Shown here piece by piece: positions 2 to 20,954 of a stretch of 23,604 nt of DNA (position 1 is the first letter of the stretch; the number at the start of each line of letters is the position of its first letter). The notes under the pieces are model-generated. The model saw only the letters and a program-made list of their open reading frames with translations. It was not told the origin of the DNA and ran no database searches. The DNA lies in the IMG/VR virus record IMGVR_UViG_3300001349_000096, positions 1 through 23,604 of that record. The stretch is one strand, 5' to 3'. The translations under genes were made by a program, and so were the position numbers. This DNA comes from a virus.

Positions 2-184
2 CAACATACTATGAAAATTTTGTTGAATAGTTTATATGGCGCTACTGCTTTAGGATCATTTAGATATGGTAATGTGATCTTAAGTGAAGCCATAACTTTA
101 TCTGGTCAGCGTATTATTCAAGAATCCGCTTTGTGTGCTAATAGACATATGAACAAAGTAATAAAAGGACAATTAACATTATGA
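2..184 (+). CDS. 43: Family B DNA polymerase, upstream piece (3' end of gene only; T4 gp43-like)
   Basis: Open from the left edge and ending in TGA, this is the end of the N-terminal part of a T4-type replicative polymerase. It carries motif B of the family, seen as KILLNSLYG (codons from position 14), followed by an aligned stretch resembling the T4 sequence after motif B (EAITLSGQRIIQE). The normal protein would then continue to motif C (DTDS), but this reading frame stops about 20 residues earlier. Motif C is found in a separate gene starting at 444. The stop overlaps the next start as ATGA, so the three genes look translationally coupled. The exonuclease domain and motif A should lie upstream of the window. 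The identification is firm; the left boundary is unknown. Confidence 0.88.
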   Translation, partial: QHTMKILLNSLYGATALGSFRYGNVILSEAITLSGQRIIQESALCANRHMNKVIKGQLTL

Positions 185-444
185 AATTAACACCTCAATC
201 AATTAGAAATAACGTAAAAATTACTTGGAATGGAGAACCTATCTCTAAACAAGAAATTATAGATATGAGTGCTCTCTGGAATGAAAAACAAATTGTTTAT
301 TTTAAAAAAATGGCTAAACAAGGGGGTACATTTAAAATCGACAATAATAAATTTAAAATAATAGTTGGTGAACCTATTTTAACTTCACGAGGAACACGAG
401 ATGGAGGTATCATCCAAATTCCAGACCCAGACGCTAGATTTTAA
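181..444 (+). CDS. Unknown 87-residue protein embedded between the two polymerase halves
   Basis: I do not recognise this protein. It begins in an ATGA overlap with the upstream polymerase piece and ends in a TAATG overlap with the downstream piece, so it fills the gap exactly and is probably co-translated with both. The sequence is mixed charge, with a basic N-terminal half and a C-terminal tail reading IIQIPDPDARF. No cysteine or histidine metal site, no GIY-YIG, LAGLIDADG or HNH motif and no intein splice residues are visible, so it does not look like an intact homing endonuclease. It could be a fragment of a mobile gene, a small DNA-binding protein, or a bridging subunit of the split polymerase. 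The last idea is inference from position only. Confidence 0.75.
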   Translation: MKLTPQSIRNNVKITWNGEPISKQEIIDMSALWNEKQIVYFKKMAKQGGTFKIDNNKFKIIVGEPILTSRGTRDGGIIQIPDPDARF

Positions 445-1376
445 TGAAGCATTTAGAAGATACTCCTTGGTGGATTTGTGACGAAGGTGACTATAATTTT
501 TGTGCCTACGTAGACACAGATTCTAATTACTTTAATGCTGAGCCTTTACTTAAACATTTATATCCCAATTTTGAGGAAATGGGTGATGAAGAAAAAGATA
601 ATGTATTAGAACAAGTAGCCCTTAAATATCAAGATATTATTACTAATGACTATGATAGATTAGCTCGAGATTGTTTTAATGTTCAAGAACATAGACTTGA
701 AATGAAAACTGAATGTGTTATCCGTTCAGCTTATTTTAGAGCTACCCGTAGATATGCTCAATGGATCACAAAACAAGAAGGCATTGCTAAAGAATCACTT
801 GATATTAAAGGACTTGAATTTAAAAAAGCTAATTTTCCTCCTATATTTGGAGAATTTTTTAATGATATTTTACAACAAATTCTAAAGGGAGCAGAACAAA
901 AACATATTGATAAATTAATTATGGATTTTAGGGGTAAAATAATGTCTAAAAATACAGATATTGCTTTATTAGGGAATCCTACCTCTGTTAAAACCTTAAA
1001 CGAATATGTCTCTCGTAAACCCAGAGCTGGAGAGGTATTAACTGAATTAAAAAAAGGTGCTCCTGCAAATGTTAAAGCAGCAGTTAAATATAACGATTTA
1101 CTCCGTTTTTGGCAATTAGATAAACAACACAGCCCAATTGTACAAGGTGATAAAATTAAATGGATTTATTTAATTGATAATCCTTACAAAATTGAAGCGA
1201 TTGGTTTTCTTAGCTTTGATGTTCCTGATAGAATGCGTAAATTCTTAAACGATTATGCTGATCGAAGAAAATCATTTGAAACTATATTACAATCTAAATT
1301 AGAAAATTTTTATACTGATTTAGGTTGGACTTTAAATTTAAATCCAAATATTAACAAATTTTTCCAATTCCAATGA
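444..1376 (+). CDS. 43: Family B DNA polymerase, downstream piece: motif C, palm end and thumb (T4 gp43-like)
   Basis: This 310-residue protein is the C-terminal part of a T4-type DNA polymerase. Motif C, YVDTDS, sits at residues 22-27 and supplies two catalytic aspartates (D24, D26). The rest matches the palm end and thumb of gp43. The last residues, INKFFQFQ, resemble the hydrophobic sliding-clamp-binding tail of T4 polymerase. Motif A must lie in the upstream polypeptide and motif B is seen at its end, so the two proteins must assemble to make one active site. The start is the ATG in the TAATG overlap with the 87-residue gene, and the end overlaps the clamp gene by four bases. Split gene 43 is known in some T4-like Aeromonas phages; whether the break site is the same is not known to me. 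Confidence 0.9.
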   Translation: MKHLEDTPWWICDEGDYNFCAYVDTDSNYFNAEPLLKHLYPNFEEMGDEEKDNVLEQVALKYQDIITNDYDRLARDCFNVQEHRLEMKTECVIRSAYFRATRRYAQWITKQEGIAKESLDIKGLEFKKANFPPIFGEFFNDILQQILKGAEQKHIDKLIMDFRGKIMSKNTDIALLGNPTSVKTLNEYVSRKPRAGEVLTELKKGAPANVKAAVKYNDLLRFWQLDKQHSPIVQGDKIKWIYLIDNPYKIEAIGFLSFDVPDRMRKFLNDYADRRKSFETILQSKLENFYTDLGWTLNLNPNINKFFQFQ

Positions 1377-2125
1377 TAACAAAAAATAAATTACAATCAA
1401 TTATTTCTAAGTACTATCTTGGAGGTAAAGTAGAATCTGTTAAATGGAAAGTTAAAGATGGAAAACTTGATATTGATTTTATGGCACCTACTAAAGATAT
1501 GATCGGTAGATTGTCTTGTGATAGTTTTTCTATGGTTAATGAGGGTGAAATGGCTATTTTTAATACAACCCAACTTAATAGATTACTAAATGTATTAGCA
1601 GGAGATTTAATGCTCGATGCTTCTAAAACTAATAAAGTATTAACTAAGCTTACTATCCAGGATAATAATGCTTCTATTAATTATTCATTAGCAGATCCTC
1701 TTATGATTCATAAGGTAGGTGAAGTAGATGAAAATGTTGAATGGAAAGTACAATCAACACTTGAAAATGAAGATTTCCATACATTTGTTAGGGCTGCATC
1801 CTCAATTCAAGGAAATGAAATAGTAACTTTAGCTGCTACTAGAGATACTATTGATACCCCTATTATTAAATTTGTATTTGGTGAACGTATGGAATTTTCA
1901 AATAAAGTAGAATTTCATACTAACGCTCAATTTGGGGATGATGTCAGAGAAGATAATAAAATCCCATTTAACAGTGAAATGCTTAGAGAAATATTCAATG
2001 CTAACAAAACATCAGATGAATGCCATTTAAGTTTTGTAGATGATGGGCTTCTTCGCCTCACTTTTACAGCAGAAGATGAAGGAATAAAAACAACATATTT
2101 CGTTGTACGAAAAGCAGATTATTAA
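1373..2125 (+). CDS. 45: DNA polymerase sliding clamp (T4 gp45-like)
   Basis: This 250-residue protein has the length and alternating beta-strand pattern of a gp45-type clamp (T4 gp45 is 228 residues) and directly follows the polymerase C-terminal piece with an ATGA overlap. The family forms a trimeric ring that tethers the polymerase to DNA and, in T4, also activates late transcription. Clamps have no catalytic motif, so the call rests on overall sequence character (for example the KVEFHTNAQF strand region and the beta-rich C-terminus TTYFVVRKADY) and on context beside polymerase and near the clamp loader genes. The polymerase tail INKFFQFQ would be its natural binding partner. Confidence 0.8.
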   Translation: MITKNKLQSIISKYYLGGKVESVKWKVKDGKLDIDFMAPTKDMIGRLSCDSFSMVNEGEMAIFNTTQLNRLLNVLAGDLMLDASKTNKVLTKLTIQDNNASINYSLADPLMIHKVGEVDENVEWKVQSTLENEDFHTFVRAASSIQGNEIVTLAATRDTIDTPIIKFVFGERMEFSNKVEFHTNAQFGDDVREDNKIPFNSEMLREIFNANKTSDECHLSFVDDGLLRLTFTAEDEGIKTTYFVVRKADY

Positions 2126-8234: not shown

Positions 8235-9668
8235 ATGAAAAAAGGTTATATTCCAAAAGATCAACGAAAGAAAATTTTGTTGATGTGTGACGATATTAGA
8301 ACCCACTCTGGTATTGGAACTATAGCAAAAGAAATAGTAGTTCATACAGCTCATCATTTTAATTATGTAAATGTAGGAGCAGCTATTCAACACCCCGAAG
8401 CAGGTAAACGATTAGATTTAAGCGAAAGCACAAATCAAGAAGCAGGGATAAAAGATGCTTCAGTAATTATTTATCCTTCTAACGGATACGGTACTCCTGA
8501 TCTAGTACGTCAAATGATATCTACTGAAAAACCAGATGCTATCTTTATTATTACTGATCCTAGATATTGGACTTGGTTGTTTCAAATGGAAGCAGAAATC
8601 CGTAGAAAAATCCCTATTGCTTACCTAAACATTTGGGATGATTACCCCGCTCCTCGTTATAACGAAGCATTCTACGAATCATGTGATTTACTGATGGGTA
8701 TTTCAAAGCAAACAGTTAATATTAATAAGATTGTTTTGGGAGAAAAAGCAGAAAATAAAATTATAGAGTATATTCCTCACGGTTTGAATCATAACATTTA
8801 TAAACCTTTAGAAAAAGATGATTCTAAATTGGTAGAATTTAAAAAGAATTTGTTTAAAGGAAAAGAATATGATTTTGTAGCTTTCTATAATTCTAGAAAC
8901 ATTAGACGCAAACAAGTTCCTGATACCATTTGGGCATTTACTCAGTTTGTAGATAAATTGTCCTTAGAACAGGCTAAAAAATGTGCCCTTGTACTCCATA
9001 CCCAAAAAGTAGACCCTAATGGAACTGATCTCCCCGCAGTAATTGATATGCTTTGTGGAGATGATGAAAGATATAATATTATTTTTTCAGAAAATAAACT
9101 TTCTACTGAAGAAATGAATTTGTTATATAACAGCACAGATGTTCAAATTCAACTTACTTCAAATGAAGGTTGGGGCTTAAGTTTAACTGAAGCTATGTTA
9201 GCAGGAAATCCTATTATAGCTAATGTTACAGGTGGGATGCAAGATCAAATGCGTTTTGAAACTAAAAATGGTACTTGGATTGAGTTTGATGAATTGTTCC
9301 CTTCAAATCATAGAGGTACCTTTAGAAAGTGTGGACCTTGGGCATTCCCAGTATTCCCTACTAGTATTTCAATTGTAGGTTCACCCCAAACTCCTTATAT
9401 TTTTGATGATAGATGTGAAGCTAGTGATGCTGCTAATCAACTTATGGAAGTTTATAATTTAGACCCTAAAGCTAGAAAATCATTTGGGCTAATGGGGAGA
9501 ACATGGGCTACAGGGAATGAAGCAGGATTTACAGCTGAACATCAAGGTGAAAGAGTTATAGAAAATATAGAAAAACTATTTAAAACTTGGAAACCTCGAT
9601 CCAAATATGAGTTGGTTAAATCAACCCCACTTAAGAAAAAAGTTACACAACACAATTTAATATATTAA
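8235..9668 (+). CDS. Glycosyltransferase, GT-B fold (GT4-like)
   Basis: This 477-residue protein resembles GT4-type retaining glycosyltransferases. The N-terminus KILLMCDDIRTHSGIGTIAKE has the glycine-rich loop of the acceptor domain. Near residues 308-325 the NEGWGLSLTEAMLAGNPII segment carries the E-x7-E motif that binds the nucleotide-sugar donor. A cytoplasmic enzyme is expected; no membrane segment is seen. The donor and acceptor cannot be read from sequence. It is the first gene of the glycan island and overlaps the next glycosyltransferase by one base (TAATG). Upstream it is separated from the ribbon-helix-helix gene by only seven bases. Confidence 0.85.
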   Translation: MKKGYIPKDQRKKILLMCDDIRTHSGIGTIAKEIVVHTAHHFNYVNVGAAIQHPEAGKRLDLSESTNQEAGIKDASVIIYPSNGYGTPDLVRQMISTEKPDAIFIITDPRYWTWLFQMEAEIRRKIPIAYLNIWDDYPAPRYNEAFYESCDLLMGISKQTVNINKIVLGEKAENKIIEYIPHGLNHNIYKPLEKDDSKLVEFKKNLFKGKEYDFVAFYNSRNIRRKQVPDTIWAFTQFVDKLSLEQAKKCALVLHTQKVDPNGTDLPAVIDMLCGDDERYNIIFSENKLSTEEMNLLYNSTDVQIQLTSNEGWGLSLTEAMLAGNPIIANVTGGMQDQMRFETKNGTWIEFDELFPSNHRGTFRKCGPWAFPVFPTSISIVGSPQTPYIFDDRCEASDAANQLMEVYNLDPKARKSFGLMGRTWATGNEAGFTAEHQGERVIENIEKLFKTWKPRSKYELVKSTPLKKKVTQHNLIY

Positions 9669-10966
9669 TGAAACCGATGTTTATAGTAAGCTGTCCGATT
9701 GATACGTACAGCGGTTATGGAGCGAGAGCTAGGGATTTTGTAAAAGCTTTAATTAAATTAAATGAGTATGATGTTAAGGTTTTACCTCAAAGATGGGGAC
9801 AAACCCCTTGGGGATTTATAGAGGACCATCCTGAATGGCAATTTTTAACCCCTCATCTTTTACCTATTGGGAATCAACTTCCTAAACAACCTGAAATTTG
9901 GTGTCAAATAACTGTACCTAATGAATTCCAACCTGTAGGAAAATATAATATAGGACTTACTGCAGGGATTGAAACTACAGGATGCCATCCTACATGGATT
10001 GAAGGATGTAATAGAATGGATCTAGTATTAACCTCCTCAGAACATTCTAAAAAAGTATTAGAAACTATCAAATTTGAACAAAGAAATCAACAAACTAACC
10101 AAGTAGTAGGTGAATACGGCTTACAAAAACCCGTAAAGGTTTTAATTGAAGGAGCAAATTTAGATGTTTACCAACCTAAAAAATCTACATTTGACTTAAG
10201 CCAAATTAAAGAAGAATTTGCTTATTTATTTATAGGTCATTGGATGCAAGGAAACATAGGCCATGATAGAAAAAATGTGGGTTTGCTTATTAGGTTGTTT
10301 TTTGAAGCATTTAAAAATAAAAAGAAAACACCCGCTTTAATTTTAAAAACTTCTACAGTAGGATCTTCATATATGGATAGAAATGAAATCCTTAAACGAA
10401 TTGATATGATTCGCAATTCAGTAGAAGATGCTAGAACTTTACCTAATGTTTACTTACTTCAAGGTGAGTTTACAGATGAGGAAATGAATGAAATCTATAC
10501 TCATAATAAAGTTAAAGCAATGATTAATTTAACTAAGGGTGAGGGCTTTGGTCGTCCTTTACTTGAATTTAGTTTAATTAAAAAACCCATTATCACTACA
10601 AATTGGAGTGGGCATACTGATTTTCTCAATGAAAAATTTACAACTTTGCTTCCAGGTGAAACGCACCAGTTGGATGATAGTTCAGTAGTAAAAGATATGT
10701 TAATGAAGGAATTCCAATGGTTTGGAGTTGATCACACTGCAGCTGTTGTAGCTATGAGGGATGTATTTACTAACTATAAAAATTATAAAGAAAAAGCAAC
10801 TCGACAAGCCTATAAAAGCCGTAAAGAATTTAGTTTTGAAAATATGGTTGATCAACTAAAAGGGTACTTAAACCAATATGTGCCTAAATTTCCTAAAGAA
10901 GTTAAATTAGAACTTCCAAAGTTAAATTTACCTAAACTTAAAAAAATAGAAAATGCAGAAGGATAA
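9668..10966 (+). CDS. Glycosyltransferase, GT-B fold (GT4-like), second copy
   Basis: This 432-residue protein has an N-terminal TYSGYGARARDFVKAL acceptor-domain loop and, near residues 288-310, GEGFGRPLLEFSLIKKPIIT, the donor-binding E-x7-E region of GT4-type enzymes. It is related in architecture to the preceding gene and may have arisen by an old duplication. Phage proteins of this sort are seen in marine T4-like genomes. Its start lies in a TAATG overlap and its end overlaps the zinc-ribbon gene by 14 bases, so the three genes form one transcriptional unit. Sugar and target unknown. Confidence 0.82.
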   Translation: MKPMFIVSCPIDTYSGYGARARDFVKALIKLNEYDVKVLPQRWGQTPWGFIEDHPEWQFLTPHLLPIGNQLPKQPEIWCQITVPNEFQPVGKYNIGLTAGIETTGCHPTWIEGCNRMDLVLTSSEHSKKVLETIKFEQRNQQTNQVVGEYGLQKPVKVLIEGANLDVYQPKKSTFDLSQIKEEFAYLFIGHWMQGNIGHDRKNVGLLIRLFFEAFKNKKKTPALILKTSTVGSSYMDRNEILKRIDMIRNSVEDARTLPNVYLLQGEFTDEEMNEIYTHNKVKAMINLTKGEGFGRPLLEFSLIKKPIITTNWSGHTDFLNEKFTTLLPGETHQLDDSSVVKDMLMKEFQWFGVDHTAAVVAMRDVFTNYKNYKEKATRQAYKSRKEFSFENMVDQLKGYLNQYVPKFPKEVKLELPKLNLPKLKKIENAEG

Positions 10967-11402
10967 TTTAGGAATATGCCCCCGCTGTGGGAGTGATGCT
11001 TGCTATGAAAGTAATTTAGGAGCAGACTATAAAGTATATCAATGTTATGGGTGTGGTTTTACTACTAATACATTAATGATTGAAGATAGTGAATTTTTAG
11101 AAGAACAATTAGAAGTATTACCTGAAATTTATAAAGATTTGGTTTATGTAGATGAAGCAGGTTTAAATTGGATGCCTTCTACAATTAATGTTGAAAGTAA
11201 GGGTATGATCTTTATTCAAGGAAAAACTATTAAAGATTGGAATTGGGTAGCTTGCCCCGCTAAAGAACTCACAGAGGAAGAAAAAGAAAATTTTCCTGAA
11301 AATGCTACTTATAAAATGGATATGAAAAACGCTTCTTATTTTAAAGAGCGTGATTTTATAGAAGCTATGGATTATATTGGATTATTCAATGCTCCTGAAT
11401 AA
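10953..11402 (+). CDS. Zinc-ribbon protein of unknown function
   Basis: This 149-residue protein opens with a classic zinc ribbon, CPRCGSDAC then CYGCG, in which C9, C12, C31 and C34 would hold one zinc. The rest is acidic and holds no recognised domain; it includes a tryptophan-rich stretch (TIKDWNWVACPAKELT). Zinc ribbons of this type bind nucleic acids or proteins. Similar N-terminal zinc-ribbon proteins occur in T4-like marine phages, again from memory. It is embedded between glycosyltransferase genes with overlaps on both sides, which may mean it helps that pathway or may only reflect tight packing. Confidence 0.75.
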   Translation: MQKDNLGICPRCGSDACYESNLGADYKVYQCYGCGFTTNTLMIEDSEFLEEQLEVLPEIYKDLVYVDEAGLNWMPSTINVESKGMIFIQGKTIKDWNWVACPAKELTEEEKENFPENATYKMDMKNASYFKERDFIEAMDYIGLFNAPE

Positions 11403-12025
11403 TGACAATAAGCTACGCTATACCAACATGTAATGAACGGACCCAGTTAGAACAACTTTTAAATACTTTATTTAAACGTAAGCGAGAACAAGATGAAATT
11501 GTAGTACAATGTGATAAAGGGAACACTACACCTAGTGTATACCAAGTATTAAAAACATTTAACTCTTATTCTAATTTTAAAGTAATTGAATTTCCTTTAA
11601 ATAGCGATTTTGCTTCATTCAAAAATAATCTAAAAAAACATTGCTCCGGAGATTGGATTATCCAAGTTGATGCTGATGAGATGTTAGGAGATATATTAAT
11701 TGATAATATACCTAATATAATAGAATCCAACCCCCATAATGATGTTTACTTAGTTCCTAGAGTTAATACTGTAAAGGGATTAACCCAAGAACATATTCAA
11801 CAGTGGGGGTGGAACGTAAATGAAAAAGGATGGGTAAACTGGCCTGATTATCAATGGCGCATTTTAAGAAATATACCTGAAATTAATTGGATAAATAAGG
11901 TTCATGAACGATTAGATGGATTCAAAACATACGCACCCCTCCCAGAAACAAAAGAATTAGCAATCCATCATCCTAAAGATATTAAGCGTCAAGAAAAACA
12001 AAATAAATTTTATAATAATTTATAA
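11402..12025 (+). CDS. Glycosyltransferase family 2 (GT-A fold)
   Basis: This 207-residue protein begins SYAIPTCNERTQLEQLL, the usual GT2 start, and carries the metal-binding D-x-D motif as DADE (residues 90-93), followed by a C-terminal segment with WINKVHERL typical of the short waaE/kdtX-like group of GT2 enzymes. It is a soluble enzyme that would transfer a sugar from a nucleotide donor to an unknown acceptor. It overlaps the zinc-ribbon gene by one base and the aminotransferase-like gene by one base. Confidence 0.85.
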   Translation: MTISYAIPTCNERTQLEQLLNTLFKRKREQDEIVVQCDKGNTTPSVYQVLKTFNSYSNFKVIEFPLNSDFASFKNNLKKHCSGDWIIQVDADEMLGDILIDNIPNIIESNPHNDVYLVPRVNTVKGLTQEHIQQWGWNVNEKGWVNWPDYQWRILRNIPEINWINKVHERLDGFKTYAPLPETKELAIHHPKDIKRQEKQNKFYNNL

Positions 12026-12666
12026 TGGCTAATGGTATATATAAAATAACAGAAGAATTTGAAAAACAACTTTCAGATTACACGGGTGCACCATATGTGG
12101 TCACATTAGACAATATGTCAAACGCTTTATTTTTAGCGTTATATTATGAAAATTACATTAAAAAGAGTATTGATGGTAAAATTAGTATTCCTTGTAGGAC
12201 ATACCCATCAGTACCCTGTGAAATAATTCACGCGGGACTTAAAGTGGAGTTTGAACCCGTTGAAGGCAGAACAATAAAAGGTATATACCAGCTTAAAGGA
12301 AGTAATGTGTGGGATTCAGCTCTTACATTTACAGCAGACATGTATAAAAAAGGTCAACATATCTGTGTTTCATTTACAGGTCCTTATAAACACTTTAAAT
12401 TAAGTAAAGGAGGAGCCATTTTAACAGATTGCCATGATGCTTATTTATGGTTTAAACGTGCCCGATACTCAGGTAGACGTGAGTGTTCCTATCATGATGA
12501 CAACTTAGATATGTTAGGTTGGAACTTTTATATGATGCCTGAATTAGCGGCAAGAGGTTCACTCTTAATGGGTCAGTTTTATAATATTGACGGTACTAAG
12601 AAACATAATCAAGATTTGGAATTACCATATCCTGATTTGAGTAAATTTGATATCTATAAAAGATGA
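12025..12666 (+). CDS. Shortened DegT/DnrJ/EryC1-type aminotransferase-like protein
   Basis: This 213-residue protein matches the PLP-binding half of sugar aminotransferases (normally about 370-400 residues). The opening FEKQLSDYTGAPYVVTLDN corresponds to the family start; VWDSA (D97) matches the aspartate that contacts the PLP ring; and SFTGPYKHFKLSKGGAILT places K122 as the lysine that would form the Schiff base. The GWNFYMMPELAARG segment matches the family's NxRMxExQAA region. The C-terminal small domain is missing. It may be a minimal enzyme, a regulatory relative, or a degraded gene kept by chance; the open frame and intact key residues favour function. Full members make amino sugars such as those in O-antigens. 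Confidence 0.75.
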   Translation: MANGIYKITEEFEKQLSDYTGAPYVVTLDNMSNALFLALYYENYIKKSIDGKISIPCRTYPSVPCEIIHAGLKVEFEPVEGRTIKGIYQLKGSNVWDSALTFTADMYKKGQHICVSFTGPYKHFKLSKGGAILTDCHDAYLWFKRARYSGRRECSYHDDNLDMLGWNFYMMPELAARGSLLMGQFYNIDGTKKHNQDLELPYPDLSKFDIYKR

Positions 12667-13271
12667 AAATATTTTGTATAGGTTATAATAAAACAGGGAC
12701 GACTTCATTAGAAAGACTAATGAATAATAACAATATTAATAGTGCACAACAAAAACCATTTGAATATAACTTAGAATCGTATTTTTATGATAATTATAGC
12801 ACATTTGTAAAAATGATAAAAAACGATTATTACGAATATAGCTTTTTTCAGGACGTCCCATTTTCCTTACCAAATTTTTATAAAGTTCTTGATAAAGAGT
12901 TTGAAAATGCTAAATTTATCCTTACAGTTAGAGATACAAAGGATGAATGGTATATTTCACTGATTAGATTTTATAAAAAAATGTTCTTAAATTTTTATAA
13001 TCCAAAAAGTATAGATGGTTATGTTTATGAAGGAGTAATATTTAAAATTTTAACACAAGTTTACGGTGCACCAAAAGAAGACCCATATAATGAAAAAATA
13101 TTAAAAAATTCTTATCTAAATCATATATTAGAAGTAAAAAAATATTTCAAAGATAGAGATAACCTACTTGTTATTAACCTCAAAGAAGATAATTTAATAG
13201 AAAAAATTGAAAATTTTTTAGGTACTGAATTTAAAAATAAAAATATCCCACATTTAAATAAATCAGAATGA
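12663..13271 (+). CDS. Sulfotransferase-like protein
   Basis: This 202-residue protein starts with CIGYNKTGTTSLERLM (residues 5-20), the phosphosulfate-binding loop of PAPS-dependent sulfotransferases, and has FILTVRDTKDEWYISL (85-100) containing the 3'-phosphate-binding arginine and serine. It would move sulfate from PAPS to a sugar or other hydroxyl. Sulfated glycans are typical of marine environments. It is notably AT-rich and lysine-rich, so it may have a different recent history from its neighbours. ATGA overlap with the aminotransferase-like gene. Confidence 0.75.
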   Translation: MKIFCIGYNKTGTTSLERLMNNNNINSAQQKPFEYNLESYFYDNYSTFVKMIKNDYYEYSFFQDVPFSLPNFYKVLDKEFENAKFILTVRDTKDEWYISLIRFYKKMFLNFYNPKSIDGYVYEGVIFKILTQVYGAPKEDPYNEKILKNSYLNHILEVKKYFKDRDNLLVINLKEDNLIEKIENFLGTEFKNKNIPHLNKSE

Positions 13272-13867
13272 AAAAAGCAATCATAGGAGCTGGAGGGTTC
13301 GCCCGAGAAATATATTGGAGCCTACCAGTAATAGAAAGACTTAATGCTGTATTTTTTATAGATGACATTTATTGGAATGATTCAAATAATTTAGTATTAC
13401 CACTTTCTAAATTTAATCCGAGTGAATATGAAGTAGTAGTAGCAATAGGTGATCCTAAAGATAGGTTTGATATGGTTCAAAAACTTCCCAAAGAAACTAA
13501 ATATTTCACCCATATTAATTCATCTGTATTAATATTAGACCCAAACATTGAAATAGGTGAAGGCAGCATTATATGTGCAGGTTGTATATTAACAACAAAT
13601 ATCACTATAGGAAACCATGCCCATCTAAACTTACAAACTACAATCGGGCATGATTGTAAAATAGGAAATTATTTTACAACAGCACCTGGAGCTAAAATTT
13701 CAGGGAATTGTGAAATACATGATTATGTTTATATAGGGACTAATGCCTCTATTAAACAAAAATTAACAATAGGTGATAACACAATTATAGGCATGAATTC
13801 AGGTGTTGTAAAAAACATTGTAGAACCCGGAGTATATGTAGGTACTCCTTCTAAAAAAATAAAATAA
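13268..13867 (+). CDS. Sugar O/N-acyltransferase, PglD/NeuD-like left-handed beta helix
   Basis: This 199-residue protein has the PglD/NeuD plan. The N-terminus KKAIIGAGGFAREI is the small nucleotide-sugar-binding domain. From about residue 95 onward, hexapeptide repeats (EIGEGSIICAG, ITIGNHAHLN, TIGHDCKIGN and so on) form a trimeric left-handed beta helix that binds acetyl-CoA. H128 in TIGHDCKIG lines up with the catalytic histidine of PglD. It likely acetylates the amino group of a sugar made by a DegT-type aminotransferase, and such an enzyme-like gene lies two genes upstream. Confidence 0.88.
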   Translation: MKKAIIGAGGFAREIYWSLPVIERLNAVFFIDDIYWNDSNNLVLPLSKFNPSEYEVVVAIGDPKDRFDMVQKLPKETKYFTHINSSVLILDPNIEIGEGSIICAGCILTTNITIGNHAHLNLQTTIGHDCKIGNYFTTAPGAKISGNCEIHDYVYIGTNASIKQKLTIGDNTIIGMNSGVVKNIVEPGVYVGTPSKKIK

Positions 13868-14484
13868 TGATGCACACTGAAGAATCTCTTAACCTTACTA
13901 GGCATATAACTGATAGAATCAATCATCATTCAATGCACCACCATTATTACGTGCTTTTTGATATAGCTAATACCTACCCTAAAGATAAAACAATTACCTA
14001 TGTTGAAATAGGATGCTACACAGGAGGATCTGCATGCCTAATGCTACAGAGGCCTAATACCAAAGTAATCTCTATAGACTTAGGATACCCTATCCCCCAA
14101 TCTACAACCCAGGATAATGTTAAAAAACTAAATAATTATAATAACTCTTATAATTATCTTGAGGGCAATTCCCAATCTTCTGAAATGGTTAATAGATTAA
14201 AAGAGTTAACAAATGAAGTAGATATTTTATTTATAGATGGAGACCATTCATATCAAGGAGTTATTAATGATTTCTTATTATATGAGGGTTTAGTAAAACC
14301 TAAGGGTTATATTATTTTTGATGATTACAATGATAGCGGCTGCCCGGGGGTGAGGGTTGCTGTAGATGAGTTAGTTAATTCCTCTATTAATCGTTATGAT
14401 ATTATTGGGACTTTTCCAAATACTTTTAAAGCAAGACCTGAAACATTATTAGAGGGCAATGACTTTATAATACAGAAAAAATGA
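13867..14484 (+). CDS. SAM-dependent class I methyltransferase (Methyltransf_24-like)
   Basis: This 205-residue protein shows the SAM-binding motif I as VEIGCYTGGSA (about residues 46-56), the acidic end of strand 2 (ISIDLG), FIDGDHSYQGVINDF (D124-H127 region) and KPKGYIIFDDY, the pattern of Methyltransf_24-type enzymes often found in sugar and antibiotic clusters. It would methylate a small acceptor, perhaps a sugar hydroxyl. The first two codons are both ATG, and the first overlaps the preceding TAA. It overlaps the following glycosyltransferase by four bases. Confidence 0.83.
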   Translation: MMHTEESLNLTRHITDRINHHSMHHHYYVLFDIANTYPKDKTITYVEIGCYTGGSACLMLQRPNTKVISIDLGYPIPQSTTQDNVKKLNNYNNSYNYLEGNSQSSEMVNRLKELTNEVDILFIDGDHSYQGVINDFLLYEGLVKPKGYIIFDDYNDSGCPGVRVAVDELVNSSINRYDIIGTFPNTFKARPETLLEGNDFIIQKK

Positions 14485-15191
14485 AATTAGGAATAGTAAT
14501 AGCTACCTACCAAAAATCTGATGGTTCAACACCTTTTTTACTTAAAAGAGCAATTGAAAGTATTAAAAACCAATCTTATCAAGATTTTACATTAATTATT
14601 ATTGGAGATAAGTACGAGGATAATGATGAATTTGAAAGCATATGTAATGATAAAGATCTAGAAGGTAAAATAATCTATGAAAATTTATCTTATGCCAAAG
14701 AAAGAGAAAAATACTCTATAGGTAGTAAAGAATTATGGAGTTCAGGAGGGGTAAATGCCCGCAATATAGGTGTTGATGTTGGTTTAAATCTAGGATTAGA
14801 ATATCTTTGCCATTTAGACCATGATGATTATTGGCACCCTCAACACTTAGAAGTAATTAACCATGCTATTGAAACTACTCAAGATGCTTCATTTATTTGT
14901 ACCTGTTCTACTTATTTTAATTCACATAGACCCCAAGTTAAGCTTACCAATGAAATTATCCCATTAGAGATAAAACCAGGGCAACAAATACACTCTTCAG
15001 TCTGTACAAATCATAAATTAATCCCTTTAAAGTATCGAGATGTATACGAAGAAACAGGAAAAGAGTATGCGTCAGATGCCGATATGTGGGAGAGGGTAGG
15101 AGAATATGTAAAACAAAATAATTTAAAAACCTATTTAATAACATCTTTAACATGTTTCCATCCAACAGAGGGAACAGATTTAAAAAACTAA
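14481..15191 (+). CDS. Glycosyltransferase family 2 (GT-A fold)
   Basis: This 236-residue protein begins KLGIVIATYQKSDGSTPFLL, the usual GT2 start, and carries an acidic D-x-D-like motif in HLDHDDYWHP (about residues 111-120) preceded by NARNIGVDVG, a typical pre-motif helix. It should be a soluble enzyme transferring a sugar from a nucleotide donor; the acceptor is unknown. It joins the methyltransferase through an ATGA overlap and stops three bases before the next acetyltransferase gene. Confidence 0.85.
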   Translation: MKLGIVIATYQKSDGSTPFLLKRAIESIKNQSYQDFTLIIIGDKYEDNDEFESICNDKDLEGKIIYENLSYAKEREKYSIGSKELWSSGGVNARNIGVDVGLNLGLEYLCHLDHDDYWHPQHLEVINHAIETTQDASFICTCSTYFNSHRPQVKLTNEIIPLEIKPGQQIHSSVCTNHKLIPLKYRDVYEETGKEYASDADMWERVGEYVKQNNLKTYLITSLTCFHPTEGTDLKN

Positions 15192-15194
15192 AAA

Positions 15195-15749
15195 ATGATT
15201 CCTAGAGGAAAATACACATATGGTCCCGAACCCAAAATAATGGGGGTGCCTGAGATTGCGATAGGGAGTAAAATTGGGAAATTTTGTTCCTTAGCAGACA
15301 ACTTACAATTCATATGTAAAGGCACCCACATGCCCCAGTGGGTCACAACATATCCTTTTAATGAAATTTGGGGGATTGATATCCCCCTATATGAAATCAA
15401 CGGGATTAAAGGAAAAGTAGGTGATGCTGTGATACAAAGCCCTATTATAATAGGAAATGATGTTTGGGTAACATCAAATGTTAAAATCAAACAAGGAATA
15501 ACAATAGGGGATGGTGCCGTATTAGCAACAGAATGTTTTGTAACCAAGGATGTCCCCCCTTATGCTATCGTAGGAGGAAACCCTGCTAAAATTATTAAAT
15601 ACAGATTCTCAGAAGAACAAATAAAGGACTTATTAGAAATAAAATGGTGGGATTGGGATGTTGAAATGGTTGTAAAAGCAGCACCCCTATTAGCTTCAGA
15701 AAATATTGATGAATTTATTTCCTACGCTAAAAATATGAAAGTAAAATGA
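15195..15749 (+). CDS. O-acetyltransferase, CatB/xenobiotic acetyltransferase type left-handed beta helix
   Basis: This 184-residue protein matches the hexapeptide acetyltransferases of the CatB/Vat type. IAIGSKIGKFCSLADNL starts the helix, H45 in GTHMPQW corresponds to the family's catalytic histidine, and the hexapeptide segment with IIIGNDVWVTSNVKI, ITIGDGAV and ATECFVTKDVPPYAIVGG leads to the family-typical end RFSEEQIKDLLEIKWWDW. Members acetylate sugars or antibiotics; in a glycan island, sugar O-acetylation is the likely role. It overlaps a 30-codon frame downstream. Confidence 0.9.
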   Translation: MIPRGKYTYGPEPKIMGVPEIAIGSKIGKFCSLADNLQFICKGTHMPQWVTTYPFNEIWGIDIPLYEINGIKGKVGDAVIQSPIIIGNDVWVTSNVKIKQGITIGDGAVLATECFVTKDVPPYAIVGGNPAKIIKYRFSEEQIKDLLEIKWWDWDVEMVVKAAPLLASENIDEFISYAKNMKVK

Positions 15750-15838
15750 AAATAATCTATAGAATATCAAACGCGGGTTATAATAAAGTAAAACCCTATT
15801 ATATTGGAAATGAACAATACTTAAAAGATGTATTATGA
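15746..15838 (+). pseudogene. 30-codon remnant resembling the start of the next gene's family
   Basis: An ATG at 15746, overlapping the acetyltransferase stop (ATGA), opens 30 codons ending in TGA, which overlaps the next gene's ATG in the same way. The peptide contains YNKVKPYYIGNEQYLKD. The following protein has at its own N-terminus HNKPRPEWFDREKIFDK, with matching N-K, P, aromatic, E and D positions in the same order. It therefore looks like the first 30 residues of a paralog of the next gene whose remainder was deleted. It may still be translated and act only as a coupling leader. Confidence 0.5.
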
Positions 15839-16542
15839 TTAGAGTATTCCAACGCCATTGTAATTTTTCATCTAATTCTCACAATAAACCACGTCCTGAG
15901 TGGTTTGATAGAGAAAAAATATTTGATAAATTTATGTTTACTTTATTTAATGAAGCACTATTTGATAATGTTAAGTATACGGCTTTTCATGATTGTGGAA
16001 ATGGAAGCATTAAAGACCACTTTTTAAATTATAAAGATGTAAATAAAATAAGCATGCATGGAGGGAATGATGCCCAATCATTTCTTAACTTGCTTAATTA
16101 TGTTAAAGACCAAAACTACCCAGATAATGATATTATATACTTTGTAGAAGATGATTATCTACATAAAGAAGGATGGATAGATATTTTACTAGAGGGATTT
16201 AAACACATTGGGGCTGATTATTATACCTTATACGATCACCCAGATAAATATTATTTATCAATGTATGAAAGTTTAACATCAAAGATTATAGCTACTCCTT
16301 CTATACATTGGAGAACAATTCCCTCTACAACAAATACTTATGCGTGTACAATGGGTACTTTAAAAAAGCATTTTGATATACACGTAAGATATTGTGACTT
16401 AGTTGAAAAATGGACTAAGGACCACGATAAATTTACTCATTTATGGAATGAAGGCTCTAATTTAGTATCTTGTATTCCTGGTTATTCTACTCATGTAGAA
16501 TCTAATATGTTATCCCCAACAATAAACTGGTCCCAACTATGA
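15835..16542 (+). CDS. Probable GT-A-like glycosyltransferase of an uncharacterised family
   Basis: This 235-residue protein was not matched to a named family. It has an FVEDDYLHKEGW segment (about residues 103-114) reminiscent of the D-x-D metal site and following helix of GT-A enzymes, and a second half with WRTIPSTTNTYACT. It contains no membrane segment or signal peptide. Position between an acetyltransferase and a GT2 gene supports sugar-transfer activity. Start is ATG within an ATGA overlap with the short remnant; the end overlaps the next gene by four bases. Confidence 0.65.
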   Translation: MIRVFQRHCNFSSNSHNKPRPEWFDREKIFDKFMFTLFNEALFDNVKYTAFHDCGNGSIKDHFLNYKDVNKISMHGGNDAQSFLNLLNYVKDQNYPDNDIIYFVEDDYLHKEGWIDILLEGFKHIGADYYTLYDHPDKYYLSMYESLTSKIIATPSIHWRTIPSTTNTYACTMGTLKKHFDIHVRYCDLVEKWTKDHDKFTHLWNEGSNLVSCIPGYSTHVESNMLSPTINWSQL

Positions 16543-17303
16543 TATCTGTAATAATCCCTACCTACAAATCCCCTGAATATCTTGATTTATGTCTTAAATC
16601 TGTTTTTGAAGGGCAAAAAAATAAAAATGAAATTATAGTTGTTATAGATGGGTTTTATGAATTAAACAAACCTATACTAGACAAATACCCAGATGTAAAT
16701 GTATTAGATTTAGGTATTAATCAAGGATTATCTGTAGCTACTAACTGGGGGGTGTATAATTCTTCAAATGATTATATTTTAGTAGTAAATGATGATAATG
16801 TGTTCCCTAAAAATTGGGATGTTGAATTAGAAAAATATTTAGATAAAGGTAAAGTAATTACCCCTAATCAAATTGAACCTAAACCTTCTATGTTTAGACA
16901 ATTTCACATTAAAGATCTAGGTAAAAACATAGAGGAATTTGATTTAAACAAATTTTGGGAATATGAATCTAACCTAAACCAACCCAGTGATAACACAGGT
17001 TCAACTTTGCCTTTTGCTATGTATAAACCTGATTACTTAGCAATAGGTGGGTGGGATATTATGTACCCTTCCCCACACGTAGTTGATTGGGATTTCTTTT
17101 TAAAATGTGAGTATGCTGGGTATGAAATGGTACGTGTATATAAACATTTTTACCATTTTGCAGGGATGTCTACACGTAAAACACAAGAACAAAATTTAGA
17201 ATCAATTCATAAAGAACAATTAGCACACCAATTTTTTGCTAATAAGTGGGGTCAAACAGCTAAGCATAACCCCCAAAATAACTCTAAGATGTTAGTTTTT
17301 TAA
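16539..17303 (+). CDS. Glycosyltransferase family 2 (GT-A fold)
   Basis: This 254-residue protein is a clear GT2 enzyme: SVIIPTYKSPEYLDLCLKSV at the N-terminus, NQGLSVATNWGV before the metal site, VVNDDNVFP (residues 83-90) as the D-x-D-like motif, and GGWDIMYPSPHVVDWDF as the acceptor and catalytic-base region, like rhamnosyl- and related transferases. It is the last gene of the main glycan island. Twelve or so bases separate it from the next gene, and a TATATTTA box lies in that gap. Confidence 0.88.
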   Translation: MISVIIPTYKSPEYLDLCLKSVFEGQKNKNEIIVVIDGFYELNKPILDKYPDVNVLDLGINQGLSVATNWGVYNSSNDYILVVNDDNVFPKNWDVELEKYLDKGKVITPNQIEPKPSMFRQFHIKDLGKNIEEFDLNKFWEYESNLNQPSDNTGSTLPFAMYKPDYLAIGGWDIMYPSPHVVDWDFFLKCEYAGYEMVRVYKHFYHFAGMSTRKTQEQNLESIHKEQLAHQFFANKWGQTAKHNPQNNSKMLVF

Positions 17304-20537: not shown

Positions 20538-20622
20538 GCTCGGATGGTGGAATTGGTAGACACGACAGACTTAAAATCTGTTGCTCATTATGGGCGTGCG
20601 GGTTCAAGTCCCGCTCCGAGTA
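20538..20622 (+). tRNA. tRNA-Leu (TAA)
   Basis: An 85-base long-variable-arm tRNA. Acceptor GCTCGGA pairs with TCCGAGT, the anticodon stem ACAGA/TCTGT holds loop CTTAAAA with anticodon TAA, and the T arm reads GCGGGTTCAAGTCCCGC. Discriminator A; no encoded CCA. It reads TTA, a very common leucine codon here. Confidence 0.92.
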
Positions 20623-20627
20623 CACTT

Positions 20628-20701
<74 letters not shown>

Positions 20702-20721
20702 CTAATTGTTCATTGAAATAT

Positions 20722-20793
20722 GCACCTATAGCTCAGCGGTAGAGCAGCAAACTCATAATTTGTCGGTCTCAAGTTCGAATCTTGGTGGGTGCA
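20722..20793 (+). tRNA. tRNA with CAT anticodon (Met, or Ile if lysidine-modified)
   Basis: Acceptor GCACCTA/TGGGTGC, D arm GCTCAGCGGTAGAGC, anticodon stem GCAAA/TTTGT with loop CTCATAA, and T arm with AAGTTCGAATCTT. The closed first acceptor pair argues against an initiator. Without identity-element analysis, elongator Met and Ile(AUA) cannot be separated. Confidence 0.88.
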
Positions 20794-20798
20794 CATAT

Positions 20799-20875
20799 TG
20801 TCTGGTATCTCCTCAAGCTTATACCTTGTTGAAAGAGTAACTGGTTACATGAGGGTTCAATCCCCTCCCAGACGA
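20799..20875 (+). tRNA. Aberrant tRNA-like element (no canonical D or anticodon arm)
   Basis: This 77-base element sits in line with the tRNAs. It keeps a seven-pair acceptor (TGTCTGG/CCAGACG, one T-G), discriminator A and a perfect T arm (GAGGGTTCAATCCCCTC). The middle does not fold normally. CAAG/CTTG (20814-20817 and 20825-20828) enclose a seven-base loop CTTATAC that looks like an anticodon loop for TAT but lies where the D arm should be. GTAAC/GTTAC with TGG between lies where the anticodon arm should be. It may be a degenerate tRNA, or a tRNA-like RNA. Confidence 0.5.
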
Positions 20876-20880
20876 CATAT

Positions 20881-20954
20881 GACTTCGTAGCTCAGCTGGT
20901 TAGAGCATCTCACTTTTAATGAGAGGGTCGTGGGTTCGAGTCCCACCGGGGTTA
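20881..20954 (+). tRNA. tRNA-Lys (TTT)
   Basis: Acceptor GACTTCG/CGGGGTT (three wobble pairs), D arm AGCTCAGCTGGTTAGAGC, anticodon stem TCTCA/TGAGA with loop CTTTTAA (anticodon TTT), T arm GTGGGTTCGAGTCCCAC, discriminator A, no encoded CCA. It reads AAA, the main lysine codon here. Confidence 0.92.

Follow-up and report, generated by a model that had tools for sequence, protein, structure and literature searches.

The window analysed here is the whole 23,604-nucleotide stretch of the virus record IMGVR_UViG_3300001349_000096, and it opens inside the gene for a replicative DNA polymerase (PolB) whose coding sequence is divided between two genes, with a third and much shorter gene between them. 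Motif B lies on the part encoding the N-terminal half of the enzyme (N-half) and motif C on the part encoding the C-terminal half (C-half). The features at this junction are as follows.

2..184, plus strand: ORF1, 3'-terminal part of the N-half polymerase gene, running in from the contig edge
14..40, plus strand: PolB motif B, KILLNSLYG, inside ORF1
181..184, plus strand: ATGA overlap of the N-half stop and the ORF2 start
181..444, plus strand: ORF2, 87 aa, an inserted independent gene from a conserved family of phage genes
442..446, plus strand: TAATG overlap of the ORF2 stop and the C-half start
444..1376, plus strand: ORF3, the C-half polymerase gene, 310 aa, encoding the palm with motif C and the thumb
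444..494, plus strand: N-terminal extension of the C-half, MKHLEDTPWWICDEGDY, near-invariant, a proposed inter-subunit clasp
513..524, plus strand: PolB motif C, DTDS
1373..2125, plus strand: sliding-clamp gene, in ATGA overlap with the C-half; weak match to the clamp model (E=1.7e-6, below the curated cut-off)

The stop codon of ORF1 is the TGA at 182-184, and the genes for the two halves are followed in order by those for the sliding clamp, HSP20, GroES/GroEL-like proteins and the clamp loader. The initial annotation of this DNA described an 87-residue gene filling the split through ATGA and TAATG overlaps, and this is what is present at 181-184 and 442-446. It was also right in placing motifs B and C on separate frames, but not in placing them at the frame ends, as ORF1 continues for 47 codons after motif B and motif C lies 23 codons into ORF3. 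When compared with the phrog_262 profile, residues 1-55 of ORF1 match positions 513-567 and residues 11-309 of ORF3 match positions 565-853; because the matched positions meet, no conserved polymerase residue has been lost at the split. Elsewhere in the window, an 84-aa gene between HSP20 and GroES (2732-2986) is weakly similar to phrog_154 (replication initiation) and P22_AR_C, and four tRNA genes are clustered at 20538-20954 (Rfam). A long run of genes at 8235-17303 looks, by sequence appearance, glycosyltransferase-, sulfotransferase-, acetyltransferase- and methyltransferase-like; genes of this kind also enter the polymerase junction as cargo in relatives.

An assembly error at position 182 can be ruled out, as a second contig, IMGVR_UViG_3300025886_002770 (L002), repeats the stop and encodes proteins 100% identical to those of the window, and as many relatives carry the same split; the set of ORF1, ORF2 and ORF3 with the same types of overlap recurs in independent contigs. 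The upstream coding sequence, which was to be read for motif A and the exonuclease, is available in L002, where the complete N-half is 560 aa long and contains the 3'-5' exonuclease, motif A and motif B, with Pfam matches to Exo1 and DNA_pol_B. Taken across both halves, the exonuclease domain and motifs A, B and C that characterise a T4 gp43-type PolB are all present, and two adjacent genes together encode a complete gp43, as in the 43A/43B kind; what departs from the gp43 type is the lack of a single polypeptide, N and C being separate genes in the 107 junctions surveyed. One could suppose that such a polymerase is non-functional and that another one replicates the phage, and the genome fragments considered here do leave room for a second polymerase. 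This is scarcely conceivable, however, given that throughout the clade the halves have kept their catalytic motifs and exonuclease domain, and that they lie beside clamp and clamp-loader genes. In the split clade, the gene immediately upstream of the N-half encodes a conserved membrane protein (~320 aa, no Pfam match; L002:1824-2783), which other members of the wider phage group encode immediately downstream of ORF2 (L120:8268-9248).

The distribution of the split was surveyed with C-half queries, for which the best 80 of 411 and the best 80 of 532 related stretches were kept, and the final junction set combines the dereplicated C-half loci with loci found through ORF2. Among the loci so surveyed, which are biased to close relatives and from which N- and C-halves separated by a long distance or encoded on different strands would be missed, there are 107 distinct split junctions versus one continuous gene (L127), and no continuous polymerase falls inside the split clade. 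The content of the junction is variable. Sixty-six junctions were found through the C-half alone, and the halves are directly joined in 19 of them, separated by ORF2 only in 18, by ORF2 and other genes in 21, and by other genes only in 8. In the direct junctions the halves abut through ATGA, which joins N-half to C-half; over all 107 junctions the gap from N to C ranges from -4 to 5214 bp, and in all but one of these (106/107) the C-half ATG is found -4 to +16 nt from the preceding stop. When the junction of the window is aligned with a direct junction that is 90% identical to it, both edges of the insert fall exactly at ATGA. Apart from ORF2, about 25 families of inserts were encountered in the junctions surveyed, including ManC-type cupin, DUF6165, Smr, PALP, Trp halogenase, PIG-L, GIY-YIG and HNH genes, with DUF6165, Smr and the ManC-type cupins being the most recurrent, and one junction (L156) holds ORF2 together with five genes that are mostly of glycan type by sequence. 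The gap between the C-half and the clamp gene is a second variable slot (for example L011 2867-3245 and L050 6932-7330), and DUF2452, DUF6165 and phosphomannomutase-like genes are found in either slot.

Shine-Dalgarno-like 4-mers occur upstream of the C-half in 18 of the 107 junctions and upstream of one of the 27 genes of the window, counts that speak against Shine-Dalgarno coupling; since such 4-mers are rare, translational coupling of the halves, if any, would rest on the overlap instead. A single polypeptide might be envisaged if one continuous polymerase were expressed through an intron, a split intein or a programmed frameshift. Phage polymerase genes carrying group I introns or inteins have been described (PMC2993671, PMC6892783), and in the direct junctions a single -1 shift at ATGA would be enough, but several observations make this scenario very improbable. 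The inserts are different complete genes, amounting to as much as 5.2 kb, with their own starts and stops, and the C-half ATG is conserved. No intron, of group I or other type, was detected by the Rfam scan of the window, which returned the four tRNAs only; no intein blocks were seen by eye in the N-half tail or the C-half start, and no intein family is among the Pfam matches of the halves. The version of this scenario entertained earlier, in which relatives would have a continuous polymerase with the intervening region removed as an intron, fails on the Rfam result and on the lack of a continuous gene in the clade among the loci surveyed. With both this version and the assembly error discounted, the earlier proposal that the active site would have to be built from two polypeptides stands on the evidence of sequence, and the tight packing of the insert is real.

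The model of the C-half has the palm-thumb fold of RB69/T4 gp43 (best E=1e-9, TM about 0.6-0.76), and in an alignment with RB69 gp43 the split falls at the GTEG turn that immediately precedes motif C. In the split enzymes the C-half starts with about 15 residues (MKHLExTPWWICD) that are extra relative to every continuous homologue compared, being not present in the five continuous relatives in that comparison. Among 106 distinct C-half proteins, conservation over the extension and the adjoining residues is nearly complete, with E5 in 102, P8 in 105, W9 in 104, I11 in 105, C12 in 103, D16 in 105 and N18 in 105. When the C-half is modelled in isolation, the extension is placed at low confidence (pLDDT<50 at residues 7-12). 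A segment that is near-invariant and yet not confidently folded alone is suggestive of a role in binding a partner, and the extension is probably an inter-subunit clasp by which the C-half is docked onto the N-half.

The viruses that share this arrangement are bacterial viruses of T4 type, a large group of which most are marine and which are uncultured; the T4-type capsid protein gp23 is encoded on two of the clade's large contigs (G024, G027) as well as by a continuous relative (G004). A quick maximum likelihood tree of N plus C (85 rows) unites the 79 split polymerases with an SH-aLRT of 99 and leaves the continuous polymerases of L127, G001, G006 and L253 outside; continuous relatives outside the clade are 858-909 aa long. 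The presence of ORF2 in the junction changes 7 times on this tree and the direct state 6 times, each label being set against all other rows. The polymerase of G002 (L259 = G002:C1:3000-14000) is likewise cut between motifs B and C, and a collagen-like repeat and other tail-type genes (about 4 kb) separate its halves; because it is nested among continuous genes and does not carry the C-half extension, it represents a separate event. In LR756508.1, a 484-kb uncultured phage, the halves are also separate, with the N-half about 3 kb upstream of the C-half. The start of the latter (L091:2987-4852) is some 22 residues ahead of motif C, into which an intein is inserted precisely at the pol-c site (YTD^...HN^TDS), and the clamp-loader ORF of this phage (L091:6243-7637) also appears to hold an intein. 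No close isolate of the window virus was found, the best cultured relative being Microcystis phage Mel-JY01, whose C-half is 35% identical and whose polymerase is continuous (848 aa). Matches to ORF2 in cellular genomes are limited to two, both phage contigs in MAG bins that keep the N-ORF2-C order, and one of these is in a Flavobacteriaceae bin, a weak hint as to the host.

The dN/dS of ORF2 is 0.06-0.17 versus the five closest relatives among the matches listed, and it is therefore more than a chance ORF. Across 60 aligned representatives, Q6, R9, K23, W33, K43 and Q47 are invariant and the length is nearly constant at about 87 aa. The AlphaFold model (pLDDT 79) has a beta-alpha-alpha-beta-beta order for which Foldseek returned no significant match (best E 0.25 in PDB, 0.075 in BFVD), and a PDB profile search gave weak and unconvincing matches only. 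A search of 20 members against PHROGs and Pfam gave no credible match to a nuclease domain (GIY-YIG, HNH, LAGLIDADG), the one HNH-named match, Tox-HNH-HHH, being at E=0.09, and neither NCBIfam nor PADLOC gave a nuclease or defence match; a nuclease or defence gene was rejected on these grounds, in agreement with the initial annotation, which had seen no recognisable homing endonuclease here. That annotation had offered two alternatives, a degraded mobile element or a third subunit, and neither has fared well; it had noted neither the variable cargo of the junction nor the conserved extra segment at the start of the C-half. GIY-YIG or HNH genes adjoin ORF2 in some junctions and lie near it elsewhere, as one might expect were it the remnant of a homing endonuclease or of another mobile element that split the gene. 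However, these endonuclease genes are separate from ORF2, which has no nuclease family match of its own, and the purifying selection seen among close pairs, the nearly constant length and the conserved residues of the family make a remnant very unlikely.

A third polymerase subunit or assembly factor, bridging both halves and for this reason positioned between them, is unlikely as well. ORF2 is indeed the commonest insert among the junctions surveyed, it is under purifying selection, and at the sites examined it lies near replication or nucleotide-metabolism genes. It is nevertheless missing from 27 of the 66 junctions found through the C-half (the direct and the other-gene-only classes) and was not found in whole direct-junction contigs of 100-110 kb, which may be incomplete. 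Nor is it confined to split polymerases among the relatives searched, as it also occurs, away from any split, in phages with continuous polymerases. In L127 it is between groEL and the clamp loader, and in L120, L122 and L162, among others, it is beside ribonucleotide reductase-type genes, a polymerase being seen on some such contigs only. No tblastn match was obtained in isolated phages. The selection on ORF2, its non-split sites and its absence from direct-junction contigs thus speak against both a mobile element in decay and a third subunit on which the enzyme depends; it is an independent conserved gene of a wider phage group that occupies the junction slot.

Split versions of gp43 are already known, as the initial annotation noted for some T4-like phages, but the known examples from Aeromonas phages are cut at another site. 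As here, the T4-type PolB of Aeromonas phages 44RR2.8t and 25 is on two adjacent genes (43A/43B), which in phage 25 have a homing endonuclease between them, and gp43A and gp43B of phage 25 co-purify and are active (PMC2988022). In 44RR, 43A (about 498 aa) contains motif A and 43B (about 391 aa) contains motifs B and C, so the cut precedes motif B, whereas in the present clade it falls between motifs B and C. Unlike the Aeromonas case, the split described here is fixed in a clade, the C-half has gained a conserved extension, and many cargo genes are found in the junction. The polymerase of Rhodothermus phage RM378, which like the window's clade belongs to the T4 superfamily, is split into one gene for the exonuclease and another for the polymerase; one 532-aa ORF of this phage matches a region that takes in motif A, motif C and sequence on either side of them, and any division must therefore be at another site than here. 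Jumbo phage MIJ3 resembles the present phages in having PolB spread over two genes with a gene between them, but its split PolB has a putative intein (PMC6892783), of which no signature was seen by eye here. The OM43 phages MEP401 and MEP402 have a split DNA polymerase and a small unknown ORF (PMC10580990); they are related to Zobellviridae, a different phage lineage, and are likened to the present case by description. The gene content reported for the far-T4 phages, uncultured clades of the T4 superfamily, overlaps with that of this clade (GTP cyclohydrolase, queuosine genes, phosphoribosyl transferase, Hsp), and the word 'split' does not occur in the text of that paper (PMC4360716).

Homing endonucleases are present in few junctions, each time directly after the N-half. 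In the GIY-YIG junctions (L179/L180) and the HNH junctions (L070/L222) the last residues of the N-half have been replaced by similar new tails; in a third kind of endonuclease junction (L140) the tail is ordinary. Such enzymes are a plausible agent of both the fission and the turnover of genes, and as few junctions hold one, a role in the original fission is circumstantial.

Overall, it is likely that these phages constitute a clade with a fixed two-subunit PolB, derived from an ancestral fission, in which the junction is a tolerated insertion slot with ORF2 as its commonest occupant. A gp43-type PolB would have been broken in the loop that connects motifs B and C, leaving an N-half that would provide the exonuclease, motif A and the fingers with motif B, and a C-half that would provide motif C and the thumb. 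The halves would be translated from tightly packed genes and joined non-covalently into one active site, the extension having presumably evolved with the split to dock one half onto the other. Once the frame was broken, genes could enter and leave seamlessly at the ATGA/TAATG stop-start overlaps, by which translation would be kept coupled. It is also possible, though doubtful, that the PWWIC clasp regulates when the catalytic site forms and that ORF2 is a small replisome factor modulating the replicase, a notion that draws on the position of ORF2 near replication genes even where the polymerase is whole.

For annotation, there is a risk that the two polymerase genes are mistaken for truncated genes or for errors of assembly. 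The larger significance is that a replicative polymerase has been cut between two catalytic motifs that have to come together in the active site, and that this state is fixed in a large clade of environmental phages. The more than 100 natural variants are a ready series for asking how split enzymes stay functional and which changes follow a fission, the conserved segment added to the C-half being one. The junction also illustrates that an essential gene can, after it is broken, turn into a tolerated docking slot, in which cargo is swapped at stop-start overlaps of four bases.
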